This document shows positions 5,128-62,760 of a stretch of DNA of 64,000 nt, in pieces. Within the stretch, counting starts at the first letter, position 1. Every line of letters begins with the position of its first letter. The translations under genes were made by a program, and so were the position numbers. This DNA comes from Amycolatopsis sp. WQ 127309 (GTDB taxonomy: Bacteria > Actinomycetota > Actinomycetes > Mycobacteriales > Pseudonocardiaceae), in the NCBI RefSeq assembly GCF_023023025.1, contig NZ_CP095481.1, forward strand, positions 5,469,001 through 5,533,000, read 5' to 3'. A model generated the notes under the pieces. That model saw only the letters and a program-made list of their open reading frames with translations. It had not been told where the DNA came from and ran no database searches.

Positions 5128-5819
5128 CCGGCCCGGCGAACACTTCCCTCCACCTCACCCCCCCGTTCGCCGGGCCGGTAGCAGTACCCGGGACCACGGT
5201 CCCGGTCGTGAGTTCCGGCCCGGTGGGTGTTTCCCCTCCACCTCACCCCCCTTGCCCACCAGGCCGGTGCGGTAACGCGAGACCCGGTCCCGGCGGACGC
5301 TTCCTCCACCTCACCCCCCCCCAAAGTCCGCCGGGCCAGGTCCGCACCACCACCCCCTGAAATACGCGGGACCCCCCGGTCCCGCCCCCGAGCCCCGGCC
5401 GGGTGGACGTCTTCCCTCCACCTCACCCCCCCCACGTCCACCGGGCCGGGATTCCTTACCCCACAACGATCCCCGCGGGATCAAACGAAGGAGGAAACGG
5501 CGGGCACAGACCCCGCCCCTCAGGTCCCGGCCCGGCAGGCGACTTCCCTCCACCTCACCCCCCAACCTGCCGGCCCGGACCCCTCAACCCGACCCCCCAA
5601 TCACACGAGATCCCCCTCTGGACACGCGACTTACGTCTTCCATCACGCGAGTCACGTCCCCAGTCACGCGAGATCCGCTTCCGGTCACGCGCATCCGGCG
5701 TCGGAACTTCCACGCTCCGCCCGGATCCGGCCCCGGCGACCGCCCCCTCGCTCGCCGGCCCCGAAATCCCCGGTCCGGTGGATGCTTCCCTCCACCTCAC
5801 CCCCCATCCTCCGGACCGG
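5128..5819. repeat. Cluster of six stem-loops with a constant polypyrimidine loop
   Basis: Six inverted repeats share the loop core CCTCCACCTCACC and have different, self-complementary stems. Arms: (1) 5128-5141 / 5165-5178, 14 bp perfect; (2) 5215-5227 / 5255-5267, one mismatch; (3) 5289-5298 / 5326-5335, perfect 10 bp core that continues imperfectly; (4) 5394-5410 / 5434-5450, one mismatch; (5) 5532-5539 / 5566-5573 core, continuing with one mismatch; (6) 5770-5783 / 5806-5819, one mismatch. Loops are about 22-27 nt. The inner stem bases vary (GAAC, TGGG, GGAC, ACGT, CAGG, GGAT) while the partner arm changes to match. Smaller hairpins lie between copies (near 5187-5204, 5376-5395, 5480-5494). 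The block separates convergent genes; no protein is expected here. Confidence 0.88.
5602..5706. repeat. 21-bp periodic array (five units)
   Basis: CACGCGA-type heads begin at 5602, 5623, 5644, 5665 and 5686, an exact 21-bp period. The head is close to RTCACGCGAG; the following 11 bp vary (for example ATCCGCTTCCG). The array lies between stem-loops 5 and 6 of the hairpin block. All units point the same way, unlike the mirror-symmetric arrays at 32347, 32743 and 62560. Confidence 0.85.
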
Positions 5820-5820
5820 C

Positions 5821-6867
5821 TCAGCTGCGGTCCCCGTGCTCCGGCACGGGGACCGCGGCCCAGAAGTCCAGCGGGACGCGGCCGACGCCCCGGCCGGCGG
5901 AGTCGAGCAGCCGGCCCATCAGCTTGACGCTCCGGAGCGTGACGGCCCGCCCGGCGATCTCCAGCCACGGCAGCTTCGCGGCCATCAGGCTCTCCAGCGC
6001 CACCGTGTCGTGCTGCGTCGGCAGCCACACCACCAGCATCAGGTTCGCCTCGCCGGACACCGCCGCGCACATCCGGACCTCCGGCAGCATCGCCAGCGAC
6101 CGGGCCGTCGTCTCCAGCTTGTCCGGCGGGACCCGCAGCCACAGCGTCACGGTGACCGGCGCGGGCGACGCCGATCGCGCGATCTCGCACCGGACGCGGA
6201 TCGCGCCCCGGGCCAGCAGCGCGTCCAGCCGGCGCCGCACGGTCGTCGCCCCGACGCCGAGCTCGGCCGCCAGCGCCGCCGCCGACACCCGCGCGTCCAC
6301 CCCGAGCGCCAGGATCAGCGCCCGGTCGGCGTCGTCGAAGCGCAGCGGGGCGCGGTGGCGCACCGGCTTCGGCGTCAGCGCTTCCCGTTGCCCGGGCGAG
6401 ATCGCCCGCACCCGCCACCGGCTGCCCTCGGTGAACATCCGCGGTGACAGCACCGTCCGCACGCGCGTCACGCCGGGCACCGCCGTCACCCGGTCCAGGA
6501 CGTGCGCGCCCAGCTCCCGCAACGTCGGCGCGACGACGTGGGCGAGCAGGTCGAACGGCCCCGCGAGGTACTCGACGGTGACGACGTGCACGTCGGCGGC
6601 CAGCACGTCGGCGACGCGCAGCGCCGCGCCGGGCGCGCAGTCGATCTCGACGAACGCCAGCGCGAGCTGCGCGGTGAGCTCCCCGCCCGCGTAGGCGGTG
6701 AGCCACGCGTCCCCGCGCTCGACGAGGCCGTCCCAGCGCCGGGCGGCGGTCACCGCGCCCAGCCCGAGCGCGTTCCCGAGCGTCGACCAGGACGCCCGCG
6801 GCGCCGCCTGCAGCGCGTCGACCAGTTTGAGGTCCTGCTCGTCCAACATGGCGGATTCTTCGCTCAT
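5821..6867 (-). CDS. Double-module AsnC/Lrp family regulator
   Basis: A 348-residue transcription factor built from two Lrp/AsnC modules in tandem. Each has an N-terminal helix-turn-helix (about residues 8-55 and 175-225; the second contains VSAAALAAELGVGATTVRRRL) and a RAM-type ligand domain. Start 6867 has GAGGG upstream. It is divergent from the M20 hydrolase operon with 68 bp between, and an inverted repeat there (6872-6893) is a good operator candidate. By family logic it should sense an amino acid or derivative handled by that operon; the ligand is unknown. Confidence 0.88.
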   Translation of the reverse strand: MSEESAMLDEQDLKLVDALQAAPRASWSTLGNALGLGAVTAARRWDGLVERGDAWLTAYAGGELTAQLALAFVEIDCAPGAALRVADVLAADVHVVTVEYLAGPFDLLAHVVAPTLRELGAHVLDRVTAVPGVTRVRTVLSPRMFTEGSRWRVRAISPGQREALTPKPVRHRAPLRFDDADRALILALGVDARVSAAALAAELGVGATTVRRRLDALLARGAIRVRCEIARSASPAPVTVTLWLRVPPDKLETTARSLAMLPEVRMCAAVSGEANLMLVVWLPTQHDTVALESLMAAKLPWLEIAGRAVTLRSVKLMGRLLDSAGRGVGRVPLDFWAAVPVPEHGDRS

Positions 6868-6871
6868 CAGC

Positions 6872-6893
6872 CCTCGAAACGGTGGTTTTGAGG
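6872..6893. promoter_or_regulatory. Inverted repeat, likely AsnC-family operator
   Basis: CCTCGAAAC and GTTTTGAGG, 9-bp arms separated by 4 bp with a single mismatch, placed between the divergent regulator and the M20 hydrolase gene. Lrp/AsnC proteins bind such short palindromes. The assignment is by position. Confidence 0.5.
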
Positions 6894-6935
6894 ATTTTCT
6901 CCCGCCATTGTGCTCGACTCTCGCATGATCGGCGG

Positions 6936-8129
6936 ATGACCCTGCGCTCCGACGCCGCCGTCCTGCTCGACGATCTGGTCGCTCTGCGCCGTGACCTGCA
7001 CCGCATTCCCGAGATCGGCCTGCACCTGCCGCGCACGCAGGAGCGCGTCCTCGCCGCGCTCGACGGCCTCGACCTCGAACTGAGCGTCGGCAAGAACCTC
7101 TCGTCGATCACCGGCGTCCTGCGCGGCGGCAAGCCGGGCGGGACCGTCCTGCTGCGCGGCGACATGGACGCGCTCCCGGTGACCGAGGCGACCGGCGAGG
7201 AGTTCAGCTCGACGCTCGACGGCGCCATGCACGCCTGCGGCCACGACCTCCACACCGCGGGCCTGGTCGGCGCGGCCCGGCTGCTCTGCGCCCGCAAAGC
7301 CGACCTGCCCGGCGACGTTGTGTTCATGTTCCAGCCCGGCGAAGAGGGCTGGGACGGCGCCGGTCACATGATCGAGGAAGGCGTCCTGACGGCGTCCGGC
7401 AAGCACGTCGACGCCGCGTACGGCCTGCACGTCTCGGCCGCCAGCTACGCGAAGGGCCAGTTCACCGCCCGGCCCGGCACGCTCATGGCGGCCTCCGGCG
7501 CGCTCGCCGTCCGGGTGCGGGGCGAGGGCGGCCACGGCTCGTCCCCGCACGACGCGCGCGACCCGATCCCGGCCGCCTGCGAGATGGTGACCGCGCTGCA
7601 GACGATGGTGACGCGGGCCTTCGACGTCTTCGACCCGGTCGTCGTCACCGTCGGGACGTTCCACGCCGGCACCCGGCGCAACATCATCCCGGACGACGCG
7701 GTGTTCGAGGCGACGCTGCGGTCGTTCTCGCCGGAGACGGCGGCGCGCGTCGGCGACCGCGCCGTCCAGGTCTGCCGCGGCATCGCCGCCGCGCACGGCC
7801 TCGACATCGACGTCACGTTCGAGCCCGAGTACCCGGCCACGGTCAACGACGCCGGCGCGTACGACTTCGTCGCGGCCACCATCCGCGACGTCTTCGGCGC
7901 GGAGCGGTTCACCGAGATGGCCGAACCGATCACCGGGTCGGAGGACTTCTCCCGCGTCCTCGAGCGCGTGCCCGGCGCGTACCTGTTCCTCGGCGCGTGC
8001 CCGACGGACCCGGCGACCGCGCCGGACAACCACTCGCCGCGCGCGCGGTTCGACGACAGCGTGCTCGGCGACGGCGCCGCGCTGCTGGCCGAGCTCGCGA
8101 TCCGCCGGCTCGCGCTCCTGGCCGGGTGA
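6936..8129 (+). CDS. M20 family amidohydrolase
   Basis: A 397-residue M20/M40-type metallohydrolase (hippurate hydrolase/IAA-amino acid hydrolase group) that should cleave an N-acyl amino acid or peptide amide bond. Metal-binding motifs are visible (RGDMDALPV, MHACGHDLHTA, QPGEEGWDGA, GSEDFS). ATG 6936 lacks a clear ribosome site but has CATGAT exactly 6 nt upstream, fitting a leaderless transcript. It opens a tightly coupled operon with DUF3311, an SSS permease and a second amidohydrolase, pointing to import and breakdown of one class of compound. Confidence 0.9.
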   Translation: MTLRSDAAVLLDDLVALRRDLHRIPEIGLHLPRTQERVLAALDGLDLELSVGKNLSSITGVLRGGKPGGTVLLRGDMDALPVTEATGEEFSSTLDGAMHACGHDLHTAGLVGAARLLCARKADLPGDVVFMFQPGEEGWDGAGHMIEEGVLTASGKHVDAAYGLHVSAASYAKGQFTARPGTLMAASGALAVRVRGEGGHGSSPHDARDPIPAACEMVTALQTMVTRAFDVFDPVVVTVGTFHAGTRRNIIPDDAVFEATLRSFSPETAARVGDRAVQVCRGIAAAHGLDIDVTFEPEYPATVNDAGAYDFVAATIRDVFGAERFTEMAEPITGSEDFSRVLERVPGAYLFLGACPTDPATAPDNHSPRARFDDSVLGDGAALLAELAIRRLALLAG

Positions 8130-8133
8130 CGCC

Positions 8134-8337
8134 GTGCGCCGCTACCACTGGCCGCCGTTGCTCCCGGTGCTCGCGCTGGTCCTGATGCCGTTCCTGCCGT
8201 TCGTCAACACGACCGGGCTGTGGCTCGGGCTGCCGCGGATGGTCGTGTGGGGCGCGTTCTGGTGCCTGATGTTCACCCCGGCGCTGCTGCTGTCGGAACG
8301 CCTGCTGCGCGCGGCGGGGGAGGAGGACGACGCGTGA
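8134..8337 (+). CDS. DUF3311 small membrane protein, permease partner
   Basis: A 67-residue protein with two transmembrane helices (about residues 8-28 and 33-55). DUF3311 proteins are typically encoded directly before SSS-family symporters, as here, and are thought to be a small subunit of the transporter. GTG 8134 starts 4 bp after the M20 gene stop; its own stop overlaps the next GTG start (GTGA). Confidence 0.88.
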   Translation: MRRYHWPPLLPVLALVLMPFLPFVNTTGLWLGLPRMVVWGAFWCLMFTPALLLSERLLRAAGEEDDA

Positions 8338-9746
8338 TCCTCACCTTCACCCTGGTGGGCATCGTCCTGATCGGCGTGCTCGGCTTCGTCGGCCGCCGCA
8401 GGCCCGTCGCCGACCTGGCGGAGTGGACCGTCGGCGGCCGCCGCTTCGGCGCCATGACCATGTGGTTCCTGCAGGCGGGCGAGGTGTTCACCACCTTCAC
8501 CTTCCTCGGCATGGCCGGGCTCGCGTTCTCCGGCGGGGTGGCCGCGATGTACGCGCTGCCGTACGTGCCGATCGCCTACGTCGTGCTGTTCTTCCTCGCG
8601 AAGCGACTCTGGACGATGGGGAAGGACCGCGGCTACCTCACGCAGGGCGACTTCCTCGAGGACCGCTACTCCAGCCGGGCGCTCGGCACGCTGTCGGCGG
8701 TGCTCGGCGTCGTGTTCGTGCTGCCCTACCTGCAGCTGCAGATCACCGGGCTCGGCCTGATCGTGCGGCTGGTCACCGGCGACAACGCGTCCGGCACGCT
8801 CAGCATGGTGACCGGCAGCGTGCTGATCGTCGCGTTCGTGCTGTGGGCCGGGCTGCGCGGCGTCGCGGCGACGTCCTACTTCAAGGACGGCATCATGCTG
8901 GTCGCGCTGGTGGTGCTCATCATCGCCGTGCCGACGCACTTCGCCGGCGGGATCGCGGGCGTGTTCCACAAGATCGAGCAGCTGCACCCCGAGAAGCTGA
9001 TCGTCCACAGTGGAGCGAACGATCATGTCTGGTTCATCACGAGCATGCTGGTCAGCGCCATCGGCGTCGGCCTGATGACGCTGCCGCACTCGTGGCCGGC
9101 GCTGATGTCGGCGCGCGACCCGAAGGTGCTGCGGCGCAACTACGCCTGGATGCCGGTGTACGAGCTGTGCCTGCTGCTGCCGATGGTCATCGGGTTCGCC
9201 GCGATCCTCGTGGTGCCCAAGGGGAGTGACCCGAACGGCGTACTGCTGACGCTGTCGAAGGACGCGTTGCCGGGCTGGGTGACGGGCGTCGTCGTGGTCG
9301 CCGCGACGGCCACCGCGATGGTCCCGGCGGCCGGGATCCTGATCGGCATCTCGTCGCTGGTGGCGCGCAACATAGTCCGTGTCCGCAGTGGCCGCAAGCA
9401 GTTCTGGATCAACCACGGCACGGTTGTGGTCGCGAGTACTCTTGCCCTCGTGCTCGGCATCTTCCGGCCGGATCTGCTGGCCAACCTGCTGCTGCTCACC
9501 TATTCGGGGTCGGTCCAGCTGGCCCCGGCCAACCTGCTGGGCTTCTTCCGGCGCGTGCCGGTCGGCAAGGGCCCGGTGCTCGCCGGGCTGATCGCCGGCG
9601 AGCTCGTGGTCAGCTGGCTGACCTTTGTGGACACTCACCTGGTCGGCACCGTCAACGTGGGCTTGGTCGGGCTCGGCGCGAACGTCGTCGTCCTCGCCCT
9701 GGCCGCTCTGGTCCAACGACAGGCTTCTCCCCAGGAGGCGGCGTGA
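8334..9746 (+). CDS. Sodium:solute symporter (SSS family)
   Basis: A 470-residue inner-membrane symporter of the PF00474 family with about 13 hydrophobic helices. GTG 8334 overlaps the DUF3311 stop by 4 bp. The motif SGGVAAMYALPYVP and the GLRGVAATSYFKDGIM region fit the family. It probably uses a sodium or proton gradient to import the substrate of the flanking hydrolases. Substrate cannot be told from sequence; amino-acid derivatives or peptides are likely given the M20 enzyme. A copy of TCCACWGTGGA lies inside the gene at 9004. Confidence 0.9.
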   Translation: MILTFTLVGIVLIGVLGFVGRRRPVADLAEWTVGGRRFGAMTMWFLQAGEVFTTFTFLGMAGLAFSGGVAAMYALPYVPIAYVVLFFLAKRLWTMGKDRGYLTQGDFLEDRYSSRALGTLSAVLGVVFVLPYLQLQITGLGLIVRLVTGDNASGTLSMVTGSVLIVAFVLWAGLRGVAATSYFKDGIMLVALVVLIIAVPTHFAGGIAGVFHKIEQLHPEKLIVHSGANDHVWFITSMLVSAIGVGLMTLPHSWPALMSARDPKVLRRNYAWMPVYELCLLLPMVIGFAAILVVPKGSDPNGVLLTLSKDALPGWVTGVVVVAATATAMVPAAGILIGISSLVARNIVRVRSGRKQFWINHGTVVVASTLALVLGIFRPDLLANLLLLTYSGSVQLAPANLLGFFRRVPVGKGPVLAGLIAGELVVSWLTFVDTHLVGTVNVGLVGLGANVVVLALAALVQRQASPQEAA

Positions 9747-10945
9747 CTCGCACGGTGTTCACCGGCGGTTCGGTGTTCGACGGCACCGGCTCGGACCCGG
9801 CGGCGGCCGACGTCGCCGTCGAGCACGGCCGGATCGTCGAAGTCGGGACGGACCTGGACGGCGACGAGGGTGTCGACTGCGCCGGCGCGGTGCTGCTGCC
9901 GGGGCTGTTCGACTGCCACGTGCACGTCACGGTGTCGGACATCGGGCTGCTGGCGCGGGTGCAGAAACCGTTTTCCTACCAGTTCTACGAGGCCGCGCGG
10001 AACCTGTGGGCGACGCTCGGGCTGGGCATCACGACGGTCCGCGACGCGTCCGGCGCGGACCTCGGCATCAAGCAGGCGGTGGACGACGGCCTGATCCCGG
10101 GCCCGCGGCTGCAGATCTCGATCGGGCTGATCAGCCAGACCGGCGGCCACGGCGACGCGTGGAGCCCGTCCGGGATGTGCGTCCCGCTGCTGGTGCCGCA
10201 CCCGGGCCGCCCGGACGCGACGGCCGACGGCCCCGACGAGATGCGCCGCGTCGCCCGCACCCTGCTGCGCGCGGGCGCGGACGTGCTGAAGGTGTGCACG
10301 ACCGGCGGGGTGCTCTCGCCGCGTGACGACCCGCGGCACTCGCAGTTCACGCCGGAGGAGCTGGAGGTCCTGGTCGCCGAGGCGGCGATGCAGGGCCGGC
10401 CGGTGATGGCGCACGCCCAGGGGTCGGCGGGCATCAAGAACGCGGTCCGCGCGGGCGTGCGGTCGATCGAGCACGGCATCTACCTGGACGACGAGGCGAT
10501 CGAGCTGATGCTCGGCCACGGCACGTGGCTGGTCCCGACGCTGATCGCCCCGGTGAACGTGGTCCGCGCCGCCGACGCGGGCGTCGACCTGCCCGCGGCG
10601 GTCGTCTCGAAGGCCCGCGAGGTGGTGGAGGCCCACCGCGACTCGGTGCGCCGCGCGTACGCGGCGGGCGTCCGCATCGCGATGGGCACCGACAGTGGCG
10701 TCGGCCCGCACGGCACGAACCTGGAGGAACTGGCCCTGATGGCGGCGTGCGGCATGACCCCGGGCGACGTCCTGGAGGCGACGACATCGTCGGCCGCGCG
10801 CCTCATGGGCCTGGACGGCGAGCTGGGCCGCATCGAGGCGGGCATGCGGGCGGACCTGGTGGTGGTGTCGGGGGACCCGTACGACTTCCCGGGGCTGGCT
10901 TCGAACATCCGTGAAGTCTGGAAGGACGGCACCCGGGTGGTCTGA
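9743..10945 (+). CDS. Metal-dependent amidohydrolase (imidazolonepropionase-like)
   Basis: A 400-residue amidohydrolase-superfamily enzyme. Metal ligands are recognisable: HVH in FDCHVHV (about residue 55), the Lys of the ADVLKVCTTGG strand, His in MAHAQ, His in IEHGIYL, and Asp in GTDSGVG. Related proteins are annotated as Xaa-Pro dipeptidases or imidazolonepropionase-like. GTG 9743 overlaps the permease stop by 4 bp, making it the last gene of a four-gene coupled operon. Confidence 0.88.
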   Translation: MTRTVFTGGSVFDGTGSDPAAADVAVEHGRIVEVGTDLDGDEGVDCAGAVLLPGLFDCHVHVTVSDIGLLARVQKPFSYQFYEAARNLWATLGLGITTVRDASGADLGIKQAVDDGLIPGPRLQISIGLISQTGGHGDAWSPSGMCVPLLVPHPGRPDATADGPDEMRRVARTLLRAGADVLKVCTTGGVLSPRDDPRHSQFTPEELEVLVAEAAMQGRPVMAHAQGSAGIKNAVRAGVRSIEHGIYLDDEAIELMLGHGTWLVPTLIAPVNVVRAADAGVDLPAAVVSKAREVVEAHRDSVRRAYAAGVRIAMGTDSGVGPHGTNLEELALMAACGMTPGDVLEATTSSAARLMGLDGELGRIEAGMRADLVVVSGDPYDFPGLASNIREVWKDGTRVV

Positions 10946-10950
10946 CGCCG

Positions 10951-11055
10951 TGTCGTCCGTCTGGTCACGTGTGTCGTCTGTACAAGCACGCGTGTCGTCC
11001 GTCTGGTCACGCGTGTCGTCCGTACAAACACGTGTGTCGTCCGTCTGGGCACGGC
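10951..11055. repeat. 21-bp periodic array (five units) beside DnaA-box element A
   Basis: TGTCGT begins at 10951, 10972, 10993, 11014 and 11035, an exact 21-bp period. Rotated, the unit is a RTCACGYGTG-like head plus a tail close to TCGTCCGTCTG; two units carry a TGTACAA-type variant tail. It starts immediately after the amidohydrolase stop and is followed at 11079 by the dispersed DnaA-box element. No gene is expected in 10946-11245. Confidence 0.85.
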
Positions 11056-11078
11056 CGATGCTCGGTCGCCGTGCGGCG

Positions 11079-11199
11079 TCGTCCACAGGCCGGGGCAGAT
11101 GTGGACAACTCCGGCCGTGGAGGCCACGCGCGGCCGGATTGTCGTGCTCCGCCGATAGACTGGACCTGGGGACGCCCCCCAAGGGAAGGGCGGGGGGCT
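11079..11199 (+). repeat. Dispersed DnaA-box-pair element, copy A
   Basis: TCGTCCACA (11079-11087), 12 bp, TGTGGACAA (11100-11108), 43 bp, CCGATA (11152-11157), 15 bp, then a CGCCCCCC...GGGGGGC hairpin block. The same plan occurs inverted at 39656-39773 (copy B) and 52238-52353 (copy C), with the same 12- and 43-bp gaps although the gap sequence differs. TTGTCCACA is the usual actinobacterial DnaA box. A -10-like hexamer (TAGACT) follows CCGA. Function unknown. Confidence 0.85.
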
Positions 11200-11245
11200 G
11201 TTGAGCGCCGGCTCGCGTGATTGACGCGACGACACGGCGTACGAG

Positions 11246-21274: not shown

Positions 21275-21413
21275 CGGAGGCCGGGTGCCGGAGGAGGGAT
21301 GCGTTTGGCGGCAAGGCAAAGCTGAGCTGAGCTGAGATGGCGACGTGCGGTCACCTCGGCCGCGCGGGCATCGCCGACTCGGCAACCAGAAGTGCCGGCT
21401 TGGCGACTGGAGC

Positions 21414-21789
21414 GGCCAACACGCTGGCTGGAGTGGTCAACACGCTGGCGGGAGCAGCCAACTTGACAACCGGAGCGGCCAACACGCTGACTGGAGCGGC
21501 CAACACGCTGACTGGAGCGGTCAACTCGCCGACCGCGACGGCCAACACGGTGACCCAGGCGGTCTACACGCCGCCGGGAGCGGTCACCCGGCAACCGGAG
21601 TGGCCAACTCGGCAACCGGAGTGGCCAACTCGGCGACCGCGACGGCCAACATGGTGACCCAAGCGGTCGACACGCCGCCGGGAGCGGTCACCCGGCAACC
21701 GGAACGGCCAACACGCCGACCGCGACGGCCAACACGCCGACCGGAACGGCCGACACGTCAGCGAGAGCGGCCAACTCGGTGGCTGGCTG
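21414..21789. repeat. Long 21-bp periodic array (about 18 units)
   Basis: Units starting with GGCCAAC/GGTCAAC-like heads begin at 21414 and recur every 21 bp to 21769, with two 20-bp steps (to 21602 and 21706). Typical unit halves are GGCCAACACG and CTGACTGGAGC. Most units are intact enough to leave a reading frame (ANTLTGA-like heptads) through the first half, but the 20-bp units break that frame and no ribosome site or codon bias supports a protein. It fills the 526-bp gap between convergent genes. Confidence 0.85.
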
Positions 21790-32343: not shown

Positions 32344-32346
32344 CCC

Positions 32347-32474
32347 GTAACTCGTGTGATTGGGGCCGTAACTTACGTGTTTGGGGCCGGAACTCGCAAG
32401 TTCCGGCCCCAATCACGTTGCTTACGTCTTCGATCACGCGAGTGACGTGCTCAGTCACGCGAGTTCCGGCAGGA
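32347..32474. repeat. Mirror-symmetric 21-bp array with central hairpin
   Basis: GTAAC/GGAAC heads start at 32347, 32368 and 32389. After a perfect 14-bp stem (32381-32394 / 32399-32412, loop CGCA) the units turn round: ATCACG/GTCACG heads start at 32412, 32433 and 32454. Both sides keep the 21-bp step exactly. Consensus head in the right-hand orientation is RTCACGCGAG, tail close to TTCCGGCCCCA. It sits directly behind the acyl-CoA ligase stop, so the hairpin may also end that transcript. Confidence 0.88.
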
Positions 32475-32482
32475 TCGTTCGC

Positions 32483-32716
32483 ATGGACACGGACCTGCCC
32501 ACCGTCACCGTGCGTTTGTGGCGTGCCGATGCCGTCGTGCTGTTCGATTGGCTGATGAGCACCGACCTCGACGCGGTGCCGATCACACACCCGGCGCAGA
32601 AGCAGGCGCTGACCGACCTGCTGTCCCGGCTGGAACAAGACACCGGCATCACCGGTGCGACAACCGAGGAAATCGCGGCAGCGCAAGAGGAAGTCGCCAA
32701 GGACATGGGCTGGTAG
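32483..32716 (+). CDS. Small hypothetical protein
   Basis: A 77-residue acidic protein from ATG 32483 with AGGA 8 nt upstream. It has no signal peptide or membrane helix; the second half is a predicted helix rich in Glu/Ala/Gln. I recognise it only as a type of small conserved actinobacterial protein; function unknown. It is enclosed by two 21-bp repeat arrays, one on each side. Confidence 0.7.
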   Translation: MDTDLPTVTVRLWRADAVVLFDWLMSTDLDAVPITHPAQKQALTDLLSRLEQDTGITGATTEEIAAAQEEVAKDMGW

Positions 32717-32742
32717 ACGGCGTCCCGTCGGCCTTCGGTGCG

Positions 32743-32882
32743 CGTGATTGAGCGGGCATCATTCGTGACTGGAGGGGCATCACCGCGATGCCCCGCCAAT
32801 CACACGTGATGCCCGCTCAATCACGGGTGATGCCCCTCGGATCACGGGTGAAGCCCGTCGGGTCACGCGTGATACCGGCTCA
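32743..32882. repeat. Mirror-symmetric 21-bp array reaching the echA19 stop
   Basis: CGTGA heads start at 32743 and 32764. A short hairpin follows (32774-32781 / 32787-32794). Then ATCAC/GTCAC heads run at 32799, 32820, 32841 and 32862, all with 21-bp steps. Here the head is ATCACGSGTGA-like and the tail carries TGCCC(C/G)CTC. The last unit ends at the echA19 stop codon (32880-32882), so the array occupies the whole gap between convergent genes. Confidence 0.88.
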
Positions 32883-33668
32883 GCGGTTGTGGAAGTCCGG
32901 CTTCCGCTTCTCCGAGAAGGCCCGTGGCCCTTCCTTCGCGTCCTCCGAGGCGAAAACCTCGATGCCGTACTGCGAGTCCAGCTTGAAGGCCTCCTCCTCG
33001 TGGAGACCCTCGGTGTCCCGGATCGTCCGCAGGATCGCCCGGACCGCGACCGGCCCGTTGGCGTTCACCAGTGCGGCCAGCTCCAGGGCGCGAGACAGAG
33101 CCTGGCCGTCCGGGACCACGTGACCGATCAAGCCGATCGCCAAGGCTTCCGCCGCGGACAGGTGACGGCCGGTCAGCAGGATGTCCGCCGCCACCGTGTA
33201 CGGGATCTGGCGTGGCAGCCGGACCGCCGAGCCGCCCATCGGGAACAGGCCCCAGCGTGCCTCCGACACCCCGAAGCGGGCCGACGTGCCCGCCACCCGG
33301 ATGTCCGTTCCCTGCAGGATCTCCGTGCCGCCCGCGATCGCCGGGCCCTCGACCGCCGCGATCAGCGGCTTGGTCAGGCGCCGGCCCTTCAAGAGACCTG
33401 GGATGCGCGAAGGATCAAAGCGACCTGACGAGAACGACTCGGACGGCGAGTTCCGCGACATCGACTTCAGGTCGGCGCCGGCGCAGAACGCGCCCCCGGT
33501 GCCCGTCAGGACGCAGCTGCGGATCGAGTCGTCCGAATCCACCCGGTCCCAGGCGTCGACCATGATCGACATCATCTCGCCCGTGATCGCGTTGCGGGCC
33601 TCCGGGCGGTTCATCGTGACGATCAGCGTCGGCCCGTCCTGCGAAACCAGCGCGTGCGGTTCACCCAC
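32880..33668 (-). CDS. echA19: EchA19-type enoyl-CoA hydratase
   Basis: A 262-residue crotonase that hydrates the steroid-22/24-enoyl-CoA side-chain intermediate. Motifs: [13 protein letters not shown] and [20 protein letters not shown] (oxyanion hole), followed by the catalytic-Glu region [15 protein letters not shown] 33668 has GGAGGAGG upstream. It is divergent from fadD19 as in M. tuberculosis (Rv3516/Rv3515c), with a KstR-like site between. Confidence 0.9.
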
Positions 33669-39831: not shown

Positions 39832-39957
39832 GCTCGCTGGGCTCGCTGGGCTCGCTGGGCTCGCTGGGCTCGCTGGGCTCGCTGGGCTCGCTGGGCTCGC
39901 CGGGCTCGCCGGGCTCGCTGGGCTCGCCGGGCTCGCCGGGCTCGCCGGGCTCGCCGG
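39832..39957. repeat. 9-bp tandem array, 14 units
   Basis: Fourteen consecutive copies of GCTCGCTGG or GCTCGCCGG. Because the unit is three codons, frames stay open on both strands (Leu-Ala-Gly or Ser-Leu-Gly repeats), but there is no start signal or continuation into a domain, so it is judged non-coding. It stands 58 bp from DnaA-box element B. Length polymorphism between strains is likely. Confidence 0.88.
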
Positions 39958-52129: not shown

Positions 52130-52237
52130 TGCCAGGCTCCTTTGCCAGCTCCGGGATCGGTCCACCCTACGCAGGTGCGACGGCCACGCCCCAGAGGCAT
52201 CCGGCCACTGTGGGCCACCCCACGGCCCGCACTCGCG

Positions 52238-52353
52238 CCCCCACCCTCCCTGGGGGGCGTGCCCTTGTCCAGTTTATCGGGAGCGCCCGACGAAACCCGG
52301 GGAAAGCGGCGGCCGGGGCTTGGTTGTCCACATCACGGCAGGGCTGTGGAAAG
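52238..52353 (-). repeat. Dispersed DnaA-box-pair element, copy C
   Basis: Minus-strand order: a degraded box (52353-52345, CTTTCCACA), 12 bp, TGTGGACAA (52332-52324), 43 bp, CCGATA (52280-52275), 15 bp, CGCCCCCC and GGGAGGGTGGGGG. The -10-like hexamer after CCGA is TAAACT. Gaps equal those of copies A and B. The 21-bp array at 52379 adjoins on the box side. Confidence 0.85.
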
Positions 52354-52378: not shown

Positions 52379-52530
52379 GCGAGCCGACGGTCTGGGTACG
52401 CGAGGCGACCGTGTGGCACGCGAGCCGACTGGCTGGGTGCGCGAGGCGACGGTCCGGGTACGCGAGGCGACCGTCTGGGTACGTGAGCCGATCATCTGGG
52501 TACGTGAGCCGACCGAGCAAGCGAGCCGAC
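52379..52530. repeat. 21-bp periodic array beside DnaA-box element C
   Basis: GCGAG/GTGAG heads start at 52379, 52400, 52420, 52441, 52462, 52483, 52504 and 52521, mostly 21-bp steps with one of 20 and a final 17. A typical unit reads GGTACGCGAG plus GCGACCGTCTG. The remaining part of this 777-bp gap (52531-52815) shows no gene or clear repeat; it should hold the region downstream of sigB. Confidence 0.83.
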
Positions 52531-52815
52531 TGCGCGGGCGCCTGGGGTTTGGGTCGGGAGGCCGGGTCCACCCCGACGGACCCGACCTCCCGGGGAAAGC
52601 GCCCGGATGCGTGCACATCCAGTCGCGAGGCTTGTCGCCGTACCCCACCGGCCTTCACCCGACAGTGGCGTGACGTAGGTCATAAGTCAATCCGGCCGAA
52701 CGGGTGTTGCGAAGGTTTGCTACCCGCGTCATGTAGGGCCGAAACCTCATTTTGGTGGCTTATTTTCCGATCGCGCCCCTGAACTGCGGGAACAATCGCG
52801 GGTTCGGGCACGAAA

Positions 52816-56143: not shown

Positions 56144-56162
56144 GGTGGGTAATGCTGCCACG

Positions 56163-57437: not shown

Positions 57438-57475
57438 GCCGCACCGGTGAGACGATGGACGGCGGAGGTGGTGCA

Positions 57476-57790
57476 GTGACCATGCCCGCCAACGACTCGG
57501 ACCCGGTGCTGATCACCGGGGCGGCCCCGTCGTACGAAGAGCAGTTCAGGGCTCGCAAGCGCAAGTACGTCATCATGATGGCGTGCCGCATCCCGTGTCT
57601 GATCCTCGCCGGGCTGACCTACCACGTGTGGTGGCTGGCGCTCGGGTTCCTCGCGATCTCGGTGCCGCTGCCGTGGATCGCGGTGCTGATCGCCAACGAC
57701 AGCCCGCCGCGCAAGACCGAGAAGGTCAACCGCTTCCAGGCCGAGCCGACGGCGATCGAGCACACCACCCACCGCGTCATCGACGGCTAG
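57476..57790 (+). CDS. DUF3099 small membrane protein
   Basis: A 104-residue actinobacterial protein with two adjacent transmembrane helices (about residues 31-51 and 52-72) and polar ends. GTG 57476 has GGAGGTGG upstream. DUF3099 has no known function. The last 4 bp overlap the convergent kinase gene. Confidence 0.85.
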   Translation: MTMPANDSDPVLITGAAPSYEEQFRARKRKYVIMMACRIPCLILAGLTYHVWWLALGFLAISVPLPWIAVLIANDSPPRKTEKVNRFQAEPTAIEHTTHRVIDG

Positions 57791-58659
57791 CCGGGCTGCG
57801 GGCCGACCTTCCCGACGGCCAGCGCGCCCAGCCGCACGCCGTGGCGCAGGACGTCCACTGTGGACTCTCCGGCCAGCCAGCCGGTGAGCACGCCGGCGTC
57901 GAACGCGTCGCCCGCGCCCGTCGAGTCCACGCAGTCGGCCTCGATCGCGGGCACGCTCGTGACGCCGCCGCCGTCGACCCAGCTCGCGCCGTTCAGGCCG
58001 GCGGTGACCACCACCGCGCCGACCGCCCCGAGCAGCTCTTTGGCCGACGCCGGGTCCGCCGAGCCGGTCAGCGCGACCAGCTCCTCGGTGTTCGGCATCA
58101 GCAGGTCGACGCCGCGGACGTCGTCGAGGAAGGCCGCCGGGTCGGTGATGTGCGCCGCCGCCTGCGGGTCGACCGACGTCGTCAGGCCCAGCTCGCGGGC
58201 GAGCGCCAGCGACGCGAGACCCGCGGCCCGCGACGGCGGGTCGAGCAGCACGTACCCGGACAGGTGCAGGTGCCCCGCCCCGGCCAGCGCCTCCGGCGTG
58301 ACGTCCTCGGGCGCGAAGCGCTGGTTGGCGCCGCGGTCGGCGAGCATGCTCCGCTGCCCGGTGGCGTCGACCATCACCACGACGCAGCACGTCGGCGCCT
58401 CGGCGTCGACCGCGAACGCGCAGCGCACGCCCGCGGCCTCCAGTTCGGCCTTGATCAGCCGGCCGCCCGGGTCGTCGCCGATGCGCGCGAGCAGCGTCGT
58501 GTCCGCGTCCAGCGAACGCAGCCACAGCGCCGTGTTGGCACCCGAGCCGCCGCCGGTGAACCGGATCTTCGCGCGGGCGTCGCCGCCGTGCGGCAACGGC
58601 TTGTCGTGCCGGGCGATCACGTCGAGGGCCGCGTCGCCGACCACCACGATCCCGGTCAT
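57787..58659 (-). CDS. psuK: PfkB-type kinase, probable pseudouridine kinase
   Basis: A 290-residue ribokinase-family enzyme: N-terminal GGGSGANTALWL and the catalytic DSTGAGDAFDAGV near the C-terminus (base Asp in GAGD). It is the second gene after psuG, overlapping by 4 bp, which supports the role of phosphorylating pseudouridine before PsuG splits it. A TCCACWGTGGA palindrome occurs inside at 57854. Confidence 0.87.
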   Translation of the reverse strand: MTGIVVVGDAALDVIARHDKPLPHGGDARAKIRFTGGGSGANTALWLRSLDADTTLLARIGDDPGGRLIKAELEAAGVRCAFAVDAEAPTCCVVVMVDATGQRSMLADRGANQRFAPEDVTPEALAGAGHLHLSGYVLLDPPSRAAGLASLALARELGLTTSVDPQAAAHITDPAAFLDDVRGVDLLMPNTEELVALTGSADPASAKELLGAVGAVVVTAGLNGASWVDGGGVTSVPAIEADCVDSTGAGDAFDAGVLTGWLAGESTVDVLRHGVRLGALAVGKVGPQPG

Positions 58660-59561
58660 GCCAGCGCCACCGCGACCTCGGTCGCCAGCTTCACGTTGTC
58701 GAGCACCAGTGCCTCGTTGGCGTCGATGCTCACCCCGCCGCTCGCGGTGTGGAAGTGCTCCAGCAGCACCGGGGTGACGTCGGAGCCGTGCACGCCCCGC
58801 TCGGCCACCAGCGCCAGGCCCCCGGCGAGCAGCCGGTCGTGCAGCTCTTTGTCCATTTCGGACACTTCGGGGATCGGGTTCGCCAGCAGGACACCGGAAC
58901 CCGCGTACGCGCGGTGCGCGGTGACCACGGCGGCGACCTGCGCCGGGTCGTCGACCCGCTGGCCCACGGCGTGCCCGGACGAGCGGAGGTAGAACGCCGG
59001 GAAGTCGTCGGTGCGGTAGCCCAGCACCGGCACCGAGTGCGTCTCCAGCACCTCGAGGGTGGCCGGGATGTCGAGCACCGACTTCACGCCGGAGCAGACC
59101 ACGACGGTCGGCACCTTCGCGAGCACGCCGAGGTCCGCCGAGACGTCCCAGCTCTGCGACGCGCCGACGTGCACCCCACCGAGGCCGCCGGTGCCGAACA
59201 CCCCGATCCCGGCCGCGGCGGCCAGCGCCGACGTGCTCGCCACGGTCGTCGCGCCCGAGCGGCCGAGGCCGACGGCCGGGCCGATGTCGCGCAGCGAAAG
59301 CTTGTCCAGCCCGGCGTCCGGCGCGCAGACGCGTTCCAGCTCGGCGGGGGAGAGGCCGACGACGACCCGGCCGTCGAGCACCGCGATGGTGGCCGGGACG
59401 GCACCGCCGTCACGCACCACGCGCTCGAGGCGGCGGCCGACGTCGAGGTTGCGGCCCGGCGGCAGGCCGTGGGACAGGATGGTGCTCTCCAGCGCGACGA
59501 CGGGGTGCCCGTCACGCAGCGCGGAAGCGACCTCTTCGTGCAGGTTGAGTGGGGTGGTCAC
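58656..59561 (-). CDS. psuG: Pseudouridine-5'-phosphate glycosidase
   Basis: A 301-residue enzyme that cleaves pseudouridine 5'-phosphate to uracil and ribose 5-phosphate. Signature stretches VALESTILSHGLPPGRN, GGLGGVHVGA and VVCSGVKSVLDIPATLE are all present. GTG 59561 lacks a clear ribosome site. Forms a pseudouridine salvage pair with psuK. Confidence 0.92.
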   Translation of the reverse strand: MTTPLNLHEEVASALRDGHPVVALESTILSHGLPPGRNLDVGRRLERVVRDGGAVPATIAVLDGRVVVGLSPAELERVCAPDAGLDKLSLRDIGPAVGLGRSGATTVASTSALAAAAGIGVFGTGGLGGVHVGASQSWDVSADLGVLAKVPTVVVCSGVKSVLDIPATLEVLETHSVPVLGYRTDDFPAFYLRSSGHAVGQRVDDPAQVAAVVTAHRAYAGSGVLLANPIPEVSEMDKELHDRLLAGGLALVAERGVHGSDVTPVLLEHFHTASGGVSIDANEALVLDNVKLATEVAVALA

Positions 59562-59570
59562 GAGGAACCA

Positions 59571-60188
59571 TCATCGGTGATCGGGTCGGTCGCGGCGCCA
59601 GCGGGTCAGCTCGGCCGTCAGGTTCTCTTCCGCGGCGCTCGCCCAGCGTGCCCGCGCGGCTTCGCTGCGGTAGAGCGTCCGCGCCAGCATGCCTTCGAGG
59701 ACGGCGATGCGCCCTTCGCGCCAGACGTCGTCGGGGTACTTCGCGTACTCCTCGCGCACGGCCTGGGCGTACCCGGCGTACTGCGCTTCGGGCGCGCCCA
59801 GGATGGCGAGGTCGGCGTCGAGCAGCGCGGTGGCGAGAGGGTCGTCGGCCGGCGCGTCGTGCTTGATCGTGGCCAGGATCAGGCCTTCGACGCGCTCGAC
59901 GTGCGCTTCGGCGACCCCGGTCAGCGCTTCCCGGGCCCAGGCCGCGCTCGCGCGCTCGTCTTCGCCGGGGTTCGCGTCGTAGACGACGTCGTGCGTCCAC
60001 GCGGCGACGGCGACGACGGCCCGGTCGGTCTCCCCGAGACCGCCGGCCAGCCAGGCGGAGTCACGCGCGACGGCGGCCGCGTGGGTGAGCGTGTGGTAAC
60101 GGCGATGGGGCTCTCCGTAACAGCTTTCGAGTCGGGGCCAGGCGTCCGGCGTGCCGCCGAGCGCGGCGATCGCTCCGGCCCACTTCAC
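59571..60188 (-). CDS. HD-domain metal-dependent phosphohydrolase-like protein
   Basis: A 205-residue HD-superfamily protein with YHTLTHA and the metal motif AWTHDVVYD near residues 35-70. Database entries of this family often carry the misleading label 'NMDA receptor subunit'. GTG 60188 is chosen because it overlaps, as GTGA, the stop codon of the decayed gene upstream, indicating former translational coupling. Function unknown. Confidence 0.8.
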   Translation of the reverse strand: MKWAGAIAALGGTPDAWPRLESCYGEPHRRYHTLTHAAAVARDSAWLAGGLGETDRAVVAVAAWTHDVVYDANPGEDERASAAWAREALTGVAEAHVERVEGLILATIKHDAPADDPLATALLDADLAILGAPEAQYAGYAQAVREEYAKYPDDVWREGRIAVLEGMLARTLYRSEAARARWASAAEENLTAELTRWRRDRPDHR

Positions 60189-60437
60189 GGGAACGTCCAG
60201 CGCGTCGGGGTGTTCGTGAAGTCCTTCTCTCGCAACCCGATCACCTTCTCCGGCCGCAGCCGCATCGACGCGTTGGCGGCCGGTTCGAGGAAGTCGTCCT
60301 CGTACGACGTCCGGCTCGTACGGGTCGTCCGTCGCGATCGACACCGCCGAGCCCGCGGCGACGTCGCGGGCCTTCATCGACCGCGGCGACGCGGGCGCGA
60401 TCCCGTACCCGGGCATGTACGGACGGTGCGTCTCCAC
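60185..60437 (-). pseudogene. Decayed PNPOx-family gene with internal deletions
   Basis: The frame opens at GTG 60437 with METHRPYMPGYGI-like sequence, the usual N-terminus of an actinobacterial pyridoxamine-phosphate-oxidase-like family, then jumps to SMKARDVAAG and IATDDPYEP, which belong about 50 residues later in intact members. After that the frame shifts, and the correct C-terminus is found in another frame (MRLRPEKVIGLREKDFTNTP then TRWTF, stop 60187-60185). So two internal segments are lost and the frame is broken. The remaining stop still overlaps the start of the HD gene. Confidence 0.75.
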
Positions 60438-60439
60438 GG

Positions 60440-61228
60440 CTAGTCGAAGATCCCGCGCGGCCGCGCCACCTGGTCGAACCAGTCGTCGAGCTGCTTCTCC
60501 CAGTTCACATCCGGTTTCATCGTGAACAGGCCGAGGAACTCCTGGCCGCGGCCGCCGAAGCCGCCGGTCTTGCTCACCCGGACCCGCTTGGTGACCTCCA
60601 GGACGACGTCGGTGCGCTCCGACGACGTCAGGAACGTGACCGCGACCTGGGAAAAGACACTCGCGAAGCGCGGTGAAGGCGCGAAGCGGATCTCCTGGAA
60701 GAAGGCGAGCTGCTGGTTCGCGCCGTTGATCCGGCCCTGCTCCAGGATCGCCTCGTGGTAGACGAAACCGATCCGGCCCAGCGCGTCGAGGACCCGCTTC
60801 TGCGCCGGGAGCGGCTCGATCGCGACGGCGTCGGCGTCGAACGGGTCGGAGACGGCCGCCGCGAGATCCAGCTCGGCGCGCACGCCGACCGCCGTCCCCG
60901 CCAGGGGCTTGCCGAAGACGCTCGTGACCGGCGTCTCCCAGGGCAGCGGGATCTCGAACGGCACGCGCACCTGCTGGCCGGCGCGGATGGTCTCGCGGCC
61001 GACGAGCTGCTGCGCGCCGAACGGGAGGTCTTCGGTCTTGTCCTCGCCGGGGACCTGGACGCGGGCCAGCAGCGTCACGCCCAGCGCGTTGATCTCCTGG
61101 TCGACCTCGCCGCCGAGCAGCAGGACCTCGCCGTGCACCGGGCGGCCGGGGGCGGCCGTGCGGTCGAGCAGGCGGGCGTCGATCTTCGCTCCGCCCGAGC
61201 CGAACGTCGCGAGCACCTTCTGGAACAT
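60440..61228 (-). CDS. Spo0M-like arrestin-fold protein
   Basis: A 262-residue protein of the sporulation-control protein Spo0M family (PF07070): MFQKVLATFG start, PGRPVHGEVLLLGGEVDQEI and IPLPWETPVTS strands of an arrestin-like fold. Cytoplasmic. In Bacillus Spo0M affects sporulation and cell division; in actinobacteria the role is unclear. ATG 61228 has AGGA 8 nt upstream. It ends 3 bp before the start of the PNPOx pseudogene. Confidence 0.87.
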   Translation of the reverse strand: MFQKVLATFGSGGAKIDARLLDRTAAPGRPVHGEVLLLGGEVDQEINALGVTLLARVQVPGEDKTEDLPFGAQQLVGRETIRAGQQVRVPFEIPLPWETPVTSVFGKPLAGTAVGVRAELDLAAAVSDPFDADAVAIEPLPAQKRVLDALGRIGFVYHEAILEQGRINGANQQLAFFQEIRFAPSPRFASVFSQVAVTFLTSSERTDVVLEVTKRVRVSKTGGFGGRGQEFLGLFTMKPDVNWEKQLDDWFDQVARPRGIFD

Positions 61229-61295
61229 GCCGCCGATCCTGCCAGGCCGAGGGGCTTTCGTACGAGCTTCGGCGGGACTGGGGCACAATGGCCGG

Positions 61296-61538
61296 GTGAG
61301 CACCGAGACGCTGACGAAGCCGGAAACCACGCCCGAGGGCACGGAGACCACCGACGACGACACACCGAAGATGTTCCACTACGTGAAGAAGGCCAAGATC
61401 GCCGAGAGCGCGGTCATGGGCAATCACGTGGTGGCGCTGTGCGGTGAGGTCTTCCCGGTGACGAAGTCGCCGAAGCCCGGTTCGCCGGTCTGCCCGGCCT
61501 GCAAGGAGATCTTCGACGGGCTGCGCAAGGGGGAGTGA
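61296..61538 (+). CDS. DUF3039 zinc-ribbon protein
   Basis: An 80-residue actinobacterial protein with a disordered acidic N-terminus (about 1-25) and a zinc-ribbon-like end (ALCGEVFPV, CPACKEIFDGL: three cysteines). CACAAT lies exactly 6 nt before GTG 61296, indicating a leaderless transcript. Function unknown; broadly conserved in actinobacteria. Divergent from the Spo0M-like gene. Confidence 0.87.
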   Translation: MSTETLTKPETTPEGTETTDDDTPKMFHYVKKAKIAESAVMGNHVVALCGEVFPVTKSPKPGSPVCPACKEIFDGLRKGE

Positions 61539-61549
61539 CCCCGCGCCCG

Positions 61550-61580
61550 GAACCCCGGCTGACGTCGTCCGCCGGGGTTC
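61550..61580 (+). terminator. Hairpin after the DUF3039 gene
   Basis: GAACCCCGGC (61550-61559) and GCCGGGGTTC (61571-61580) are perfect 10-bp arms with an 11-nt loop, 11 bp after the stop codon. No long T run follows. Confidence 0.7.
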
Positions 61581-61720
61581 AGCCATGTCCGACTGCGGTT
61601 TGTCCAAAAGAGGACAAGTCTCGGGGTCAAACGTGAAAACCCTTCATTAGACGGGTGCGCGACGCCCGGGAGTGCTGGTAGATCGGGTTCGCCAGGTTTC
61701 CCACTCCCACCGGAGGCGTC

Positions 61721-62557
61721 ATGCGCAGAACCGGGATCGTCGTCGCCGTAGCCGCCCTGCTCACCGTGTTCGCGCCCGCGCTGGCGCAGGCCGTCACCGG
61801 CTGGACCGAGGTCGGCAAGGACCAGGCCCGCGCCCTCGACGAGAGCCAGGGGCTCGCGACGATCGTGCGGCCGTCGGGCACCACCATCCGCTACACCGGG
61901 CTCAGCACCATCCCGGCCGACCTGAACGCCCAGGGCTGGAACCACATCGGCGACCCCGGGTCGGCGCAGGGCTGGTACGTCGAGCCCTACCAGCGCGACG
62001 ACCGGGGCGGGAAGCTCTACCGCGTCCAGGCGCCGGACGGCTCGTGGGCGAACTACAAGCACAGCCTCGAGTCGTGGGAGGCGAACAACAACTCGTTCGC
62101 CGCCGTCTCGCCCGACGCGCGCTGGCTGGTCGAGGGCGAGTACGGCACCATGGACCGGCTCCTGGTCCACCCGATGCCCGGCGCGGTGTTCACGACCCCC
62201 GCGCAGAACCTGCCGATGGCGGGGACGATCCGGCTCGACCACCCGGTCCGCGACGTCCAGGGCTGCGACTTCCAGACCGCGACCCGGCTGCTCTGCTCGT
62301 CCGACGACCCGGACGGCAGCCTCTTCGGCACGACCAAGCCGCTGCTGCAGGTGGACCTCGCCGGCGGCCTCAACGGCTCCGACGTCGCCGGCCACGTCAC
62401 CTCGCTCGGCCAGCTGCCGCTGCGCAGCGGCTGCAGCGGGACCTTCGAGGTCGAAGGCCTCGACTTCGACGAGCGGGACAACACCCTGCGGGTCATTGTG
62501 ATGTCGCCGAGCATCTGCATCGTCTTCGACAGCATGACCTACCGCTTCAAGCAGTAG
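61721..62557 (+). CDS. Secreted protein of unknown function
   Basis: A 278-residue exported protein: signal peptide about residues 1-24 (cleavage after AQA), then a beta-rich domain with pairs of cysteines (GCDFQT, LLCSS; SGCSG, SICIVF), likely disulfides. CGGAGGCGTC precedes ATG 61721. I do not recognise the family. It is monocistronic and followed by a mirror-symmetric 21-bp array. Confidence 0.78.
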   Translation: MRRTGIVVAVAALLTVFAPALAQAVTGWTEVGKDQARALDESQGLATIVRPSGTTIRYTGLSTIPADLNAQGWNHIGDPGSAQGWYVEPYQRDDRGGKLYRVQAPDGSWANYKHSLESWEANNNSFAAVSPDARWLVEGEYGTMDRLLVHPMPGAVFTTPAQNLPMAGTIRLDHPVRDVQGCDFQTATRLLCSSDDPDGSLFGTTKPLLQVDLAGGLNGSDVAGHVTSLGQLPLRSGCSGTFEVEGLDFDERDNTLRVIVMSPSICIVFDSMTYRFKQ

Positions 62558-62559
62558 CC

Positions 62560-62760
62560 GTAACCCGCGTGATCAAACCCGCGACTCACGTGATCAAACC
62601 CGTAACTCGCGTGATCAGACCCGTGACTCACGTGATTGGGGCCGTAACTCGCGAGTCACGGCCCCAATCACGCGAGATCCGGCTCTGATCACGCGAGATC
62701 CGGTTTGGATCACGCGGGTTCCGGCTCTGATCACGTGAATTCCGGCTTGGAGCTGTGTGA
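62560..62760. repeat. Mirror-symmetric 21-bp array (5 + 5 units) with central hairpin
   Basis: Left units start at 62560, 62581, 62602, 62623 and 62644 (GTRACYCRCGTGAT heads). A perfect 15-bp stem (62631-62645 / 62658-62672) forms the centre. Right units start at 62667, 62688, 62709 and 62730 (ATCACGCGAG-type heads), with a decayed one at 62751. All steps are 21 bp. The reverse complement of a left unit is a right unit with a few changes, so the array is a true mirror. Right-hand tail is close to ATCCGGCTCTG. Confidence 0.9.

Follow-up and report, generated by a model that had tools for sequence, protein, structure and literature searches.

The genome of Amycolatopsis sp. WQ 127309 (G000; a single contig, C1, of 11.13 Mb) carries in its intergenic gaps a dispersed family of arrays built from 21-bp units. 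The stretch analysed here, termed the window, covers 64,000 bp (G000:C1 5469001-5533000), and an initial annotation made from its sequence alone had described seven such arrays in it. All seven are present at the positions claimed, Tandem Repeats Finder (TRF) being among the checks. In our best reading the element is a genus-restricted mosaic of 21-bp units, which stand in the same order in several loci and are often mirrored around a hinge. With moderate confidence we regard it as a composite dispersed repeat of the kind of BOX and of the bacterial interspersed mosaic elements (BIME) that occupies the terminator niche between convergent genes and whose mirrored copies work as hairpins in both directions. 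Some activity would copy whole elements, or bring them by recombination, into the gaps at the 3′ ends of genes, and their units would be gained and lost through slippage or unequal exchange. The mirrored copies would form bidirectional, U-tract-free hairpins that terminate or insulate the transcripts of two converging genes; in relatives, other palindromic families may fill this role. The members of the family in the window are listed below (z, folding z-score; G061, a sister species).

5602..5706, plus strand: direct array of five units with M/P-type tails, in the convergent gap 5114-5820; no hairpin (z -1.25).
10947..11060, plus strand: direct array of S-type units GTGTCGTCCGTCTGGTCACG in a convergent gap, starting 1 nt behind an amidohydrolase stop; absent from G061.
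21405..21789, plus strand: direct array of about 18 units of the second type, GGCCAACACGGTGACCGGAGT, in a convergent gap beside a thiolase gene; found in rearranged form in G061.
32344..32474, no strand assigned: inverted array of left- then right-facing units with its hinge at 32396, directly behind the stop of an acyl-CoA synthetase (AMP-binding) gene; one hairpin (z -8.4) with a 14-bp perfect inner stem; absent from the orthologous G061 gap.
32743..32882, no strand assigned: inverted array of P-type units ATCACGCGTGATGCCC, ending at the stop of a minus-strand enoyl-CoA hydratase gene (32880-33668, PF00378); one long hairpin (z -6.9) with a 19-bp perfect stem; absent from G061.
52379..52530, plus strand: direct array of S-type units with a g-head, GTACGCGAGCCGACCGTCTGG; the G061 array is longer and rearranged.
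62558..62760, no strand assigned: inverted array of four left-facing units, the hinge CTCGCGAG at 62651 and four right-facing units, directly behind the TAG at 62555-62557; a predicted 203-nt hairpin of -119.5 kcal/mol (z -10.7).
62765..62844, no strand assigned: single reverse unit (head at 62773) and a classic hairpin with a 22-bp stem, in front of a minus-strand gene.

The 21-bp Period across the Genome

In the window, the same-strand spacing of heads (the conserved first part of each unit) peaks at 21, 42 and 63 bp. The initial annotation had asked for a genome-wide count, and this bears out the enrichment at 21 bp: there are 67+72 pairs of TCACGCGWG spaced 18-22 bp, and 66+69 of them (135 of 139) are exactly 21 bp apart, whereas the reversed head, our control, gives 0+0. 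A sample of 864 kb, consisting of the window and 40 evenly spaced 20-kb stretches of G000, holds 44 pairs of exact TCACGYGWG at distances of 10-130 bp: 37 of the distances are multiples of 21, six lie within ±1 of one and a single one lies elsewhere, and the reversed head forms no pair in that range. Without the window 36 pairs are left, with 29 at multiples of 21, six at ±1 and again one other. Across 61 same-strand runs the step equals 21 in 179 of 188 cases. Since the reversed controls are zero we reject a chance origin of the spacing, and from the genome-wide and sample counts together the 21-bp family is neither due to chance nor local to the window. The 864 kb contain 12 strict two-head array loci, eight of them in the 800 kb outside the window; extrapolated to the whole genome, this gives roughly 110-150. 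Coding repeats were rejected as well, as called genes hold only 14 of the 68 exact heads in the sample, some perhaps through calling errors; at one locus (L130) the array lies within a long stretch that the gene caller left open.

Anatomy of the Units

Each 21-bp unit joins a head, whose sequence is TCACGYGWG or, among other variants, GTACGYGAG, to a 12-bp tail, in which positions 17-21 are mostly YYYRR (179 units). The heads are far better conserved than the tails, although they also served as the search key. Tails fall into the types TTCCG/TCACG/ATACG.., TCGTCC/CCGACC.., ATGCC.. and TTCGC.., each of which recurs at further loci and in further species. The picture first proposed for these arrays, of common heads with tails homogenised locally, is right on average, in that the tails of neighbours are more alike than those of different loci. 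The tails are not specific to each locus, however, as the same types return at many loci and in other species as a small library. Nor did strain alignment show heads kept while tails vary in the case of the 5602 array, where the sisters G000 and G061 keep tails as well as heads; this conservation and the shared library point to dispersal of whole elements. Several loci show the unit types in the same order and with the same polarity. In crude unit classes, the order start-S-P-M(n)-G-S(m), whole or in part, can tentatively be read in, for example, L014, L100, L101 and L134.

The arrays had also been taken for simple tandem repeats, which cannot stand for those at 32347, 32743 and 62560, whose halves have opposite orientation. 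This mirrored layout is common, either as left-facing units, the hinge CTCGCGAG and right-facing units, or as right-facing units, a centre and left-facing units. The array at 21414 is made of another type of unit, GGCCAACACGGTGACCGGAGT, which likewise repeats every 21 bp: with spacings of 17-25 allowed, 17/17 matches in G000 and 8/9 in G061 are 21 bp apart, as are 3/3 of a variant in G013, and ten other genomes have only one or two matches. This second unit may be a distant relative of the S unit through compensating indels, a likeness that 14 of 400 shuffles equal in score.

Position Relative to Genes

Arrays lie behind genes. Genes were called with a simple codon-usage caller that misses some and thereby inflates the codirectional class, and arrays were counted by their 21-bp lag (lag-21), which takes in arrays of the second unit and a few possibly coding ones. 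On this basis, arrays occur in 9/67 convergent, 8/219 codirectional and 0/137 divergent gaps of G000 longer than 40 bp, and with the window left aside in 5/60, 5/203 and 0/127. The excess in convergent gaps that marks BOX-like repeats is thus found outside the window, and it is found in named Amycolatopsis loci too. Among the matches listed for a pattern of three heads, 112 loci belong to Amycolatopsis. Of these, 15 touch the edge of a contig or locus, and the 97 that could be classified comprise 64 convergent, 31 codirectional and two divergent gaps. Where the genes are codirectional, the array core begins at a median of 27 nt behind the upstream stop, and in 30 of the 31 gaps 80 nt or more separate it from the following start. 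Stop codons are more often embedded in unit-like sequence (CGTAA, GTGAT., TGATCA) at gene ends that flank arrays (24/114) than at other gene ends (57/1485).

Hairpin Potential

Many array gaps fold well: in 27 gaps examined the median z is -7.2 on the plus strand, with 17 below -4, compared with medians of -2.8 in array-free convergent gaps (20), -1.1 in divergent gaps (30) and -0.65 in codirectional gaps (30). Hairpins with 12-bp arms occur in 29/44 array-free convergent gaps of G000 and in 15/23 convergent array gaps taken whole, and in only 5/23 when the sequence outside the array is considered. In codirectional gaps they occur in 40/188 without an array and 10/12 with one, and in divergent gaps in 13/127. 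The array thus seems to stand in for the usual hairpin, though it leaves little space beside itself for another.

Dispersal, Turnover and Exchange of Whole Gaps

When array gaps from different loci are aligned end to end, they match over 119-189 bp at 79-86% identity without a single indel. In the case of 62558-62844, the alignment with L127 spans 161 bp (82.6%) and that with L113 spans 189 bp (79.4%). Such alignments make the arrays copies of a composite element and not independent local growths. The highest identity between loci over at least 100 bp is 86.1% in the 39 gaps compared, so no recent burst is seen among them.

Between the sisters, turnover is fast. Of the seven window arrays G061 shares the one at 5602, has those at 21414 and 52379 in rearranged form and lacks those at 10951, 32347 and 32743. 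The 62560 gap is wholly different, holding another array and a hairpin, although the sequences on its two sides share 97.7 and 99.0% identity. Units come and go locally as well, as the G061 orthologue of the 5602 array has the same units and three more (63 bp, by eye).

The gap that separates the gene for the acyl-CoA synthetase from that for the enoyl-CoA hydratase (window 32344-32880) could be read in 29 of the 30 loci fetched. It contains mirrored 21-bp arrays with stems of 14-28 bp in G000, G030, G042 and G052; a hairpin family, GTCCTCTGRATGCGG and variants, in G006, G008, G015, G016, G031, G045, G048 and G120, with remnants in G007 and G019; a GTCACCTACTTGC hairpin in G014 and G018; and palindromes of their own in several other species. 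A perfect stem of at least 12 bp is present in 22 of the 29 species, four times as an array and 18 times as an unrelated palindrome. A second gap, between an RmlD-type gene and a glycosyltransferase gene, was read in 18 of 24 genus loci, two of which have a codirectional neighbour. It holds arrays in G007, G008 and G022, one hairpin family in G006, G014 and G018, another in G002, G015, G016 and G020 (with a remnant in G019), and others in G001, G004 and G005, while it measures only 4 bp in G009 and 22 bp in G017.

Several further gaps deserve mention. Two unrelated long-hairpin families, GCATTTCGTCCTCTGAATGCGG and CGCAATTNGTCACCTACTTGC, stand stop to stop in the array's place in related species (L070, L077, L080, L081, L082 and L078, L083; L372, L374, L376, L378, L380, L381). 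Within the single gap of L128 (2050-2568) one array element is duplicated whole, by eye. Other convergent gaps hold hairpins with GCACTTTCACGTGAAAGTGC (L054 19040-19103, L099 2680-2715), the centre of which resembles the parS core.

Distribution in Amycolatopsis and Beyond

The exact pattern occurs in 34 of 72 genus genomes, G000 included. The initial annotation had raised the possibility that the arrays are confined to the window and absent from close relatives; many relatives carry them, but several close ones have none. When up to two mismatches are allowed, 35 of 75 genus genomes have 107-627 matches and 36 have at most seven, the reversed control giving at most six per genome. Only G021 (25), G032 (26), G043 (68) and G048 (12) fall between, so that array presence across the genus is nearly all-or-none. 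In G021 the matches are mostly of a variant, GCACGCGAGTTACACGTTCGG, still at 21 bp and with the variant head GCACGCGAG. G067 (seven matches) has two unit-like matches with one mismatch, and from these letters it may keep a few array relics. Eight changes are needed to place this distribution on a quick rpoB tree (71 rows), at least five of them forced by branches with support of at least 95 in the Shimodaira-Hasegawa-like approximate likelihood ratio test (SH-aLRT); with the exact pattern the changes are six, four of them forced.

In the array-free close relatives G063, G005, G003 and G036, no lag-21 array was found in 32 convergent gaps longer than 40 bp, and 30-bp and other palindromes occupy the same niche instead. 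Palindromic arrays with a 30-bp period, such as CCAAGGTGGCCTTCGGTGCGTCAGACG, lie in convergent gaps at L061 15509-15634, L054 10208-10362 and L388.

Outside the genus the signal fades. One or two stray matches appear in 3/189 genomes of other genera of the family (the reversed control has one stray match in one genome), the exact pattern in 0/48 genomes from other families of the order, and the head pair in 0/395 other genomes of the phylum. We therefore rejected a pan-bacterial head. Three heads at 21 bp were matched in at least 120 contig entries, and among the matches listed eight are from outside Amycolatopsis: Trueperaceae, Cellulosimicrobium, Deltaproteobacteria, Planctomycetaceae, metagenome-assembled genomes (MAGs) of Myxococcota and Acidobacteriota, Streptomyces galbus and Tahibacter soli. 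Most of these eight are taken as chance among generic 21-bp arrays, a judgement made without a control head.

The Cellulosimicrobium MAG (L246, L360, L364) carries its own 21-bp family, TCACGCGAGGTAGAGGCCTGG, on five contigs, with the Amycolatopsis head and a different tail, and by eye one of these arrays stands directly behind a stop codon. The Deltaproteobacteria MAG (L248, about 400-900) has a long 21-bp array in which the unit switches from GTCGCGTTCACCGCTGTTGCG to CTCGCGTGACGGTCCGCCGGA with the register kept.

Comparison with Known Repeats

The BOX element of Streptococcus (boxA-boxB(n)-boxC) is a composite intergenic repeat, and in the parts of the paper that treat BOX, RUP and SPRITE, all three show an excess in convergent gaps and are interpreted as parasitic (Croucher et al., 2011, PMC3049150). 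As far as that account goes, BOX and the present family have in common that they are composite and intergenic, with modules in an order that in the arrays is tentative, variable tandem middle units, a predicted stem-loop RNA, a convergent excess, a range of few species and no proven mobiliser. The arrays differ in their 21-bp unit, near-exact lattice and mirrored hinge, in having no fixed end modules in all copies, and in a stronger convergent bias; they are GC-rich, from another phylum and unrelated in sequence to BOX, and we claim no membership by sequence.

In enterobacteria, repetitive extragenic palindromes (REP) form the BIME, which are mosaics of alternately oriented units at gene ends, with hairpin potential and many copies. 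The arrays share all of these traits and differ in unit and layout, and also in that G000 has no REP-associated Y1 transposase: the family of such transposases, RAYT (PF01797), has no match in G000 and was found in 5 of 14 control genomes. REP/BIME moved by RAYT was rejected for this reason. Actinobacteria also have intrinsic terminators poor in U-tracts, with a GC-rich hairpin behind the stop codon. Many of the arrays would likewise place a predicted GC-rich hairpin behind stops, but the arrays are multi-unit, up to about 200 nt long, dispersed genome-wide and only about half of them mirrored. No match to a known structured RNA family was found in the window (Rfam, gathering threshold), and this candidate was rejected.

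As described in the sections of Subirana and Messeguer (2019, PMC6749651) that bear on dispersal, genome-wide spread of non-coding satellites is rare in prokaryotes and is seen for long repeats in Leptospira interrogans and Methanocella conradii; Table 1 of that paper lists A. mediterranei with 23 satellites, and these sections name no such family. Common to those dispersed satellites and to our arrays, as far as these sections show, are tandem-repeat families at many intergenic places of one genome. Among open-licence papers in PubMed Central (PMC) we found no description of the present family. Small repeats dispersed behind genes are nothing unusual, but this family marks about one in 12 convergent gaps of an 11-Mb genome (the 5/60 given above). 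Arrays that are on or off and are swapped for unrelated palindromes provide a clean comparative system for asking how GC-rich bacteria keep convergent transcripts apart, how intergenic repeats of composite make-up arise and vanish, and which activity maintains them. With a pattern that is on or off across the genus, the responsible gene can be sought directly by comparing which genes are present and which are absent.

Possible Origins of the Arrays

Several observations weigh against a composite repeat working as a terminator hairpin. Strict heads occur in both orientations in only 18 of 39 array gaps, and about half of the arrays have a single orientation; some of these, such as L103, L117, L134 and the window array at 5602, fold no better than chance, so the hairpin cannot be the whole story. 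A U-tract was sought, and on neither strand does any of the 39 array gaps have a T-run of at least five. There is no covariation between mirrored tails: at 12 filtered hinges, from which at least three visible hinges escaped, their identity is 0.736 against 0.729 after shuffling (p=0.40). Being no more alike than tails of different loci, they give no sign of compensatory selection on the stem, and an RNA stem kept by compensatory change was rejected. The low count of hairpins outside the array (5/23) stems in part from lack of room, with a median of 21 bp left, and some gaps hold classic hairpins alongside arrays, as at 62765..62844 and, by eye, at about 52545-52596 on the 3′ side of the 52379 array. 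The unit order is not universal, L131 having the reverse order. Tolerance behind genes explains the placement as well as function does, and no generator of the arrays was found. The explanations set out below overlap with this one and with each other, and our confidence in them need not sum to one.

The alternative that survives best, which we hold tentatively and as clearly the less probable, is that these are composite repeats without function, spread by copying, recombination and slippage, surviving behind stops where they do least harm and forming hairpins as a by-product. Arms without covariation, direct arrays that do not fold and whole-gap turnover beside flanks 97.7-99% identical all fit this, as does a ratio of substitutions to net indels of 15:1 in orthologous arrays, like the 17:1 of ordinary intergenic DNA. 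The convergent excess of BOX, RUP and SPRITE, where that study discusses it, has likewise been read as tolerance of parasites (Croucher et al., 2011, PMC3049150). That said, 22 of 29 species have a palindrome of one sequence or another at the same gap, suggesting that the site calls for something palindromic, and several lineages have neither arrays nor clear relics, which is odd for neutral debris.

The near all-or-none pattern and the fast turnover suggest an activity in trans behind the arrays. A more far-reaching proposal, which we rate as rather unlikely, is that this activity writes arrays into stop-to-stop convergent gaps and keeps them there. The 21-bp lattice would then be its footprint, that of a protein filament or of a copying enzyme with a two-turn step, and would also serve as a bidirectional barrier to transcription. 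A lineage losing the activity would clear more than 100 arrays without clear relics, and one gaining it would refill its gaps.

A model that builds on the initial annotation, in which a putative sequence-specific protein binds the heads on one face of the helix and forms a filament or roadblock between convergent genes, seems decidedly improbable. The strength of head conservation described above speaks for it, and so do the 21-bp period of the second unit (though this may be a distant relative with compensating indels) and that of the variant head in G021. Inverted arms are mostly in register, with offsets of 0, 1, 19 or 20 (17 cases) or 8-10 (seven cases) modulo 21 in 24 cases, although a common centre or hinge can produce the same. 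Net indels are somewhat rarer between array loci (23-35 substitutions to one) than in ordinary intergenic DNA (17:1), and tails too divergent to align are still equal in length; together these make a long-term length constraint on the units possible. The ratios are net-shift counts, for which substitutions simulated without indels gave no net shift; they replace direct BLAST indel counts (arrays 13-16:1 vs 13.7:1), which were dropped because, where heads anchor the alignment, dissimilar tails between them produce pairs of gaps that cancel out. On the other side, indels in orthologous arrays come at about the ordinary rate, 30-bp arrays occupy the same niche in array-free relatives, no protein has been identified, and phased binding predicts neither the scarcity at promoters nor the swap for unrelated hairpins. 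That the arrays stand at gene ends and trade places with unrelated hairpins speaks for a gene-end or terminator niche instead of one-face binding.

Least probable of all is a miniature inverted-repeat transposable element (MITE) moved by an insertion-sequence transposase: the copies are dispersed and many elements start and end in inverted sequence (CCGTGTCGACC.. or CCCGTAACTCGCG.., by eye), but direct arrays do not, the occupied sites are mostly 3′ gaps, the genome has no REP-type Y1 transposase, and no target duplication is readable in G000/G061 or in two multi-species gaps, since the gaps compared differ over their entire length. To our knowledge no insertion sequence has these ends, though no adequate search was made for one.

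Other Repeats of the Window

The gap that houses the 5602 array (5114-5820) also contains six copies of a CTTCCCTCCACCTCACCCCCC stretch (by eye, with small variations), which is found at L096 4816-5573 and in the sister species G061 as well. Each copy is surrounded by different inverted arms, giving hairpins with a fixed loop and variable stems. Another dispersed noncoding element is located at about 11080-11215 and 52230-52350 of the window and at L132, L125 and L067, with TTGTCCACA...TGTGGACAA-like arms followed by GATAGACTGGAC.AGGGCACGCCCCCC or similar. Finally, a 9-bp tandem repeat, GCTCGCTGG, covers 39832-39954 with 13.7 copies and 97% matches.

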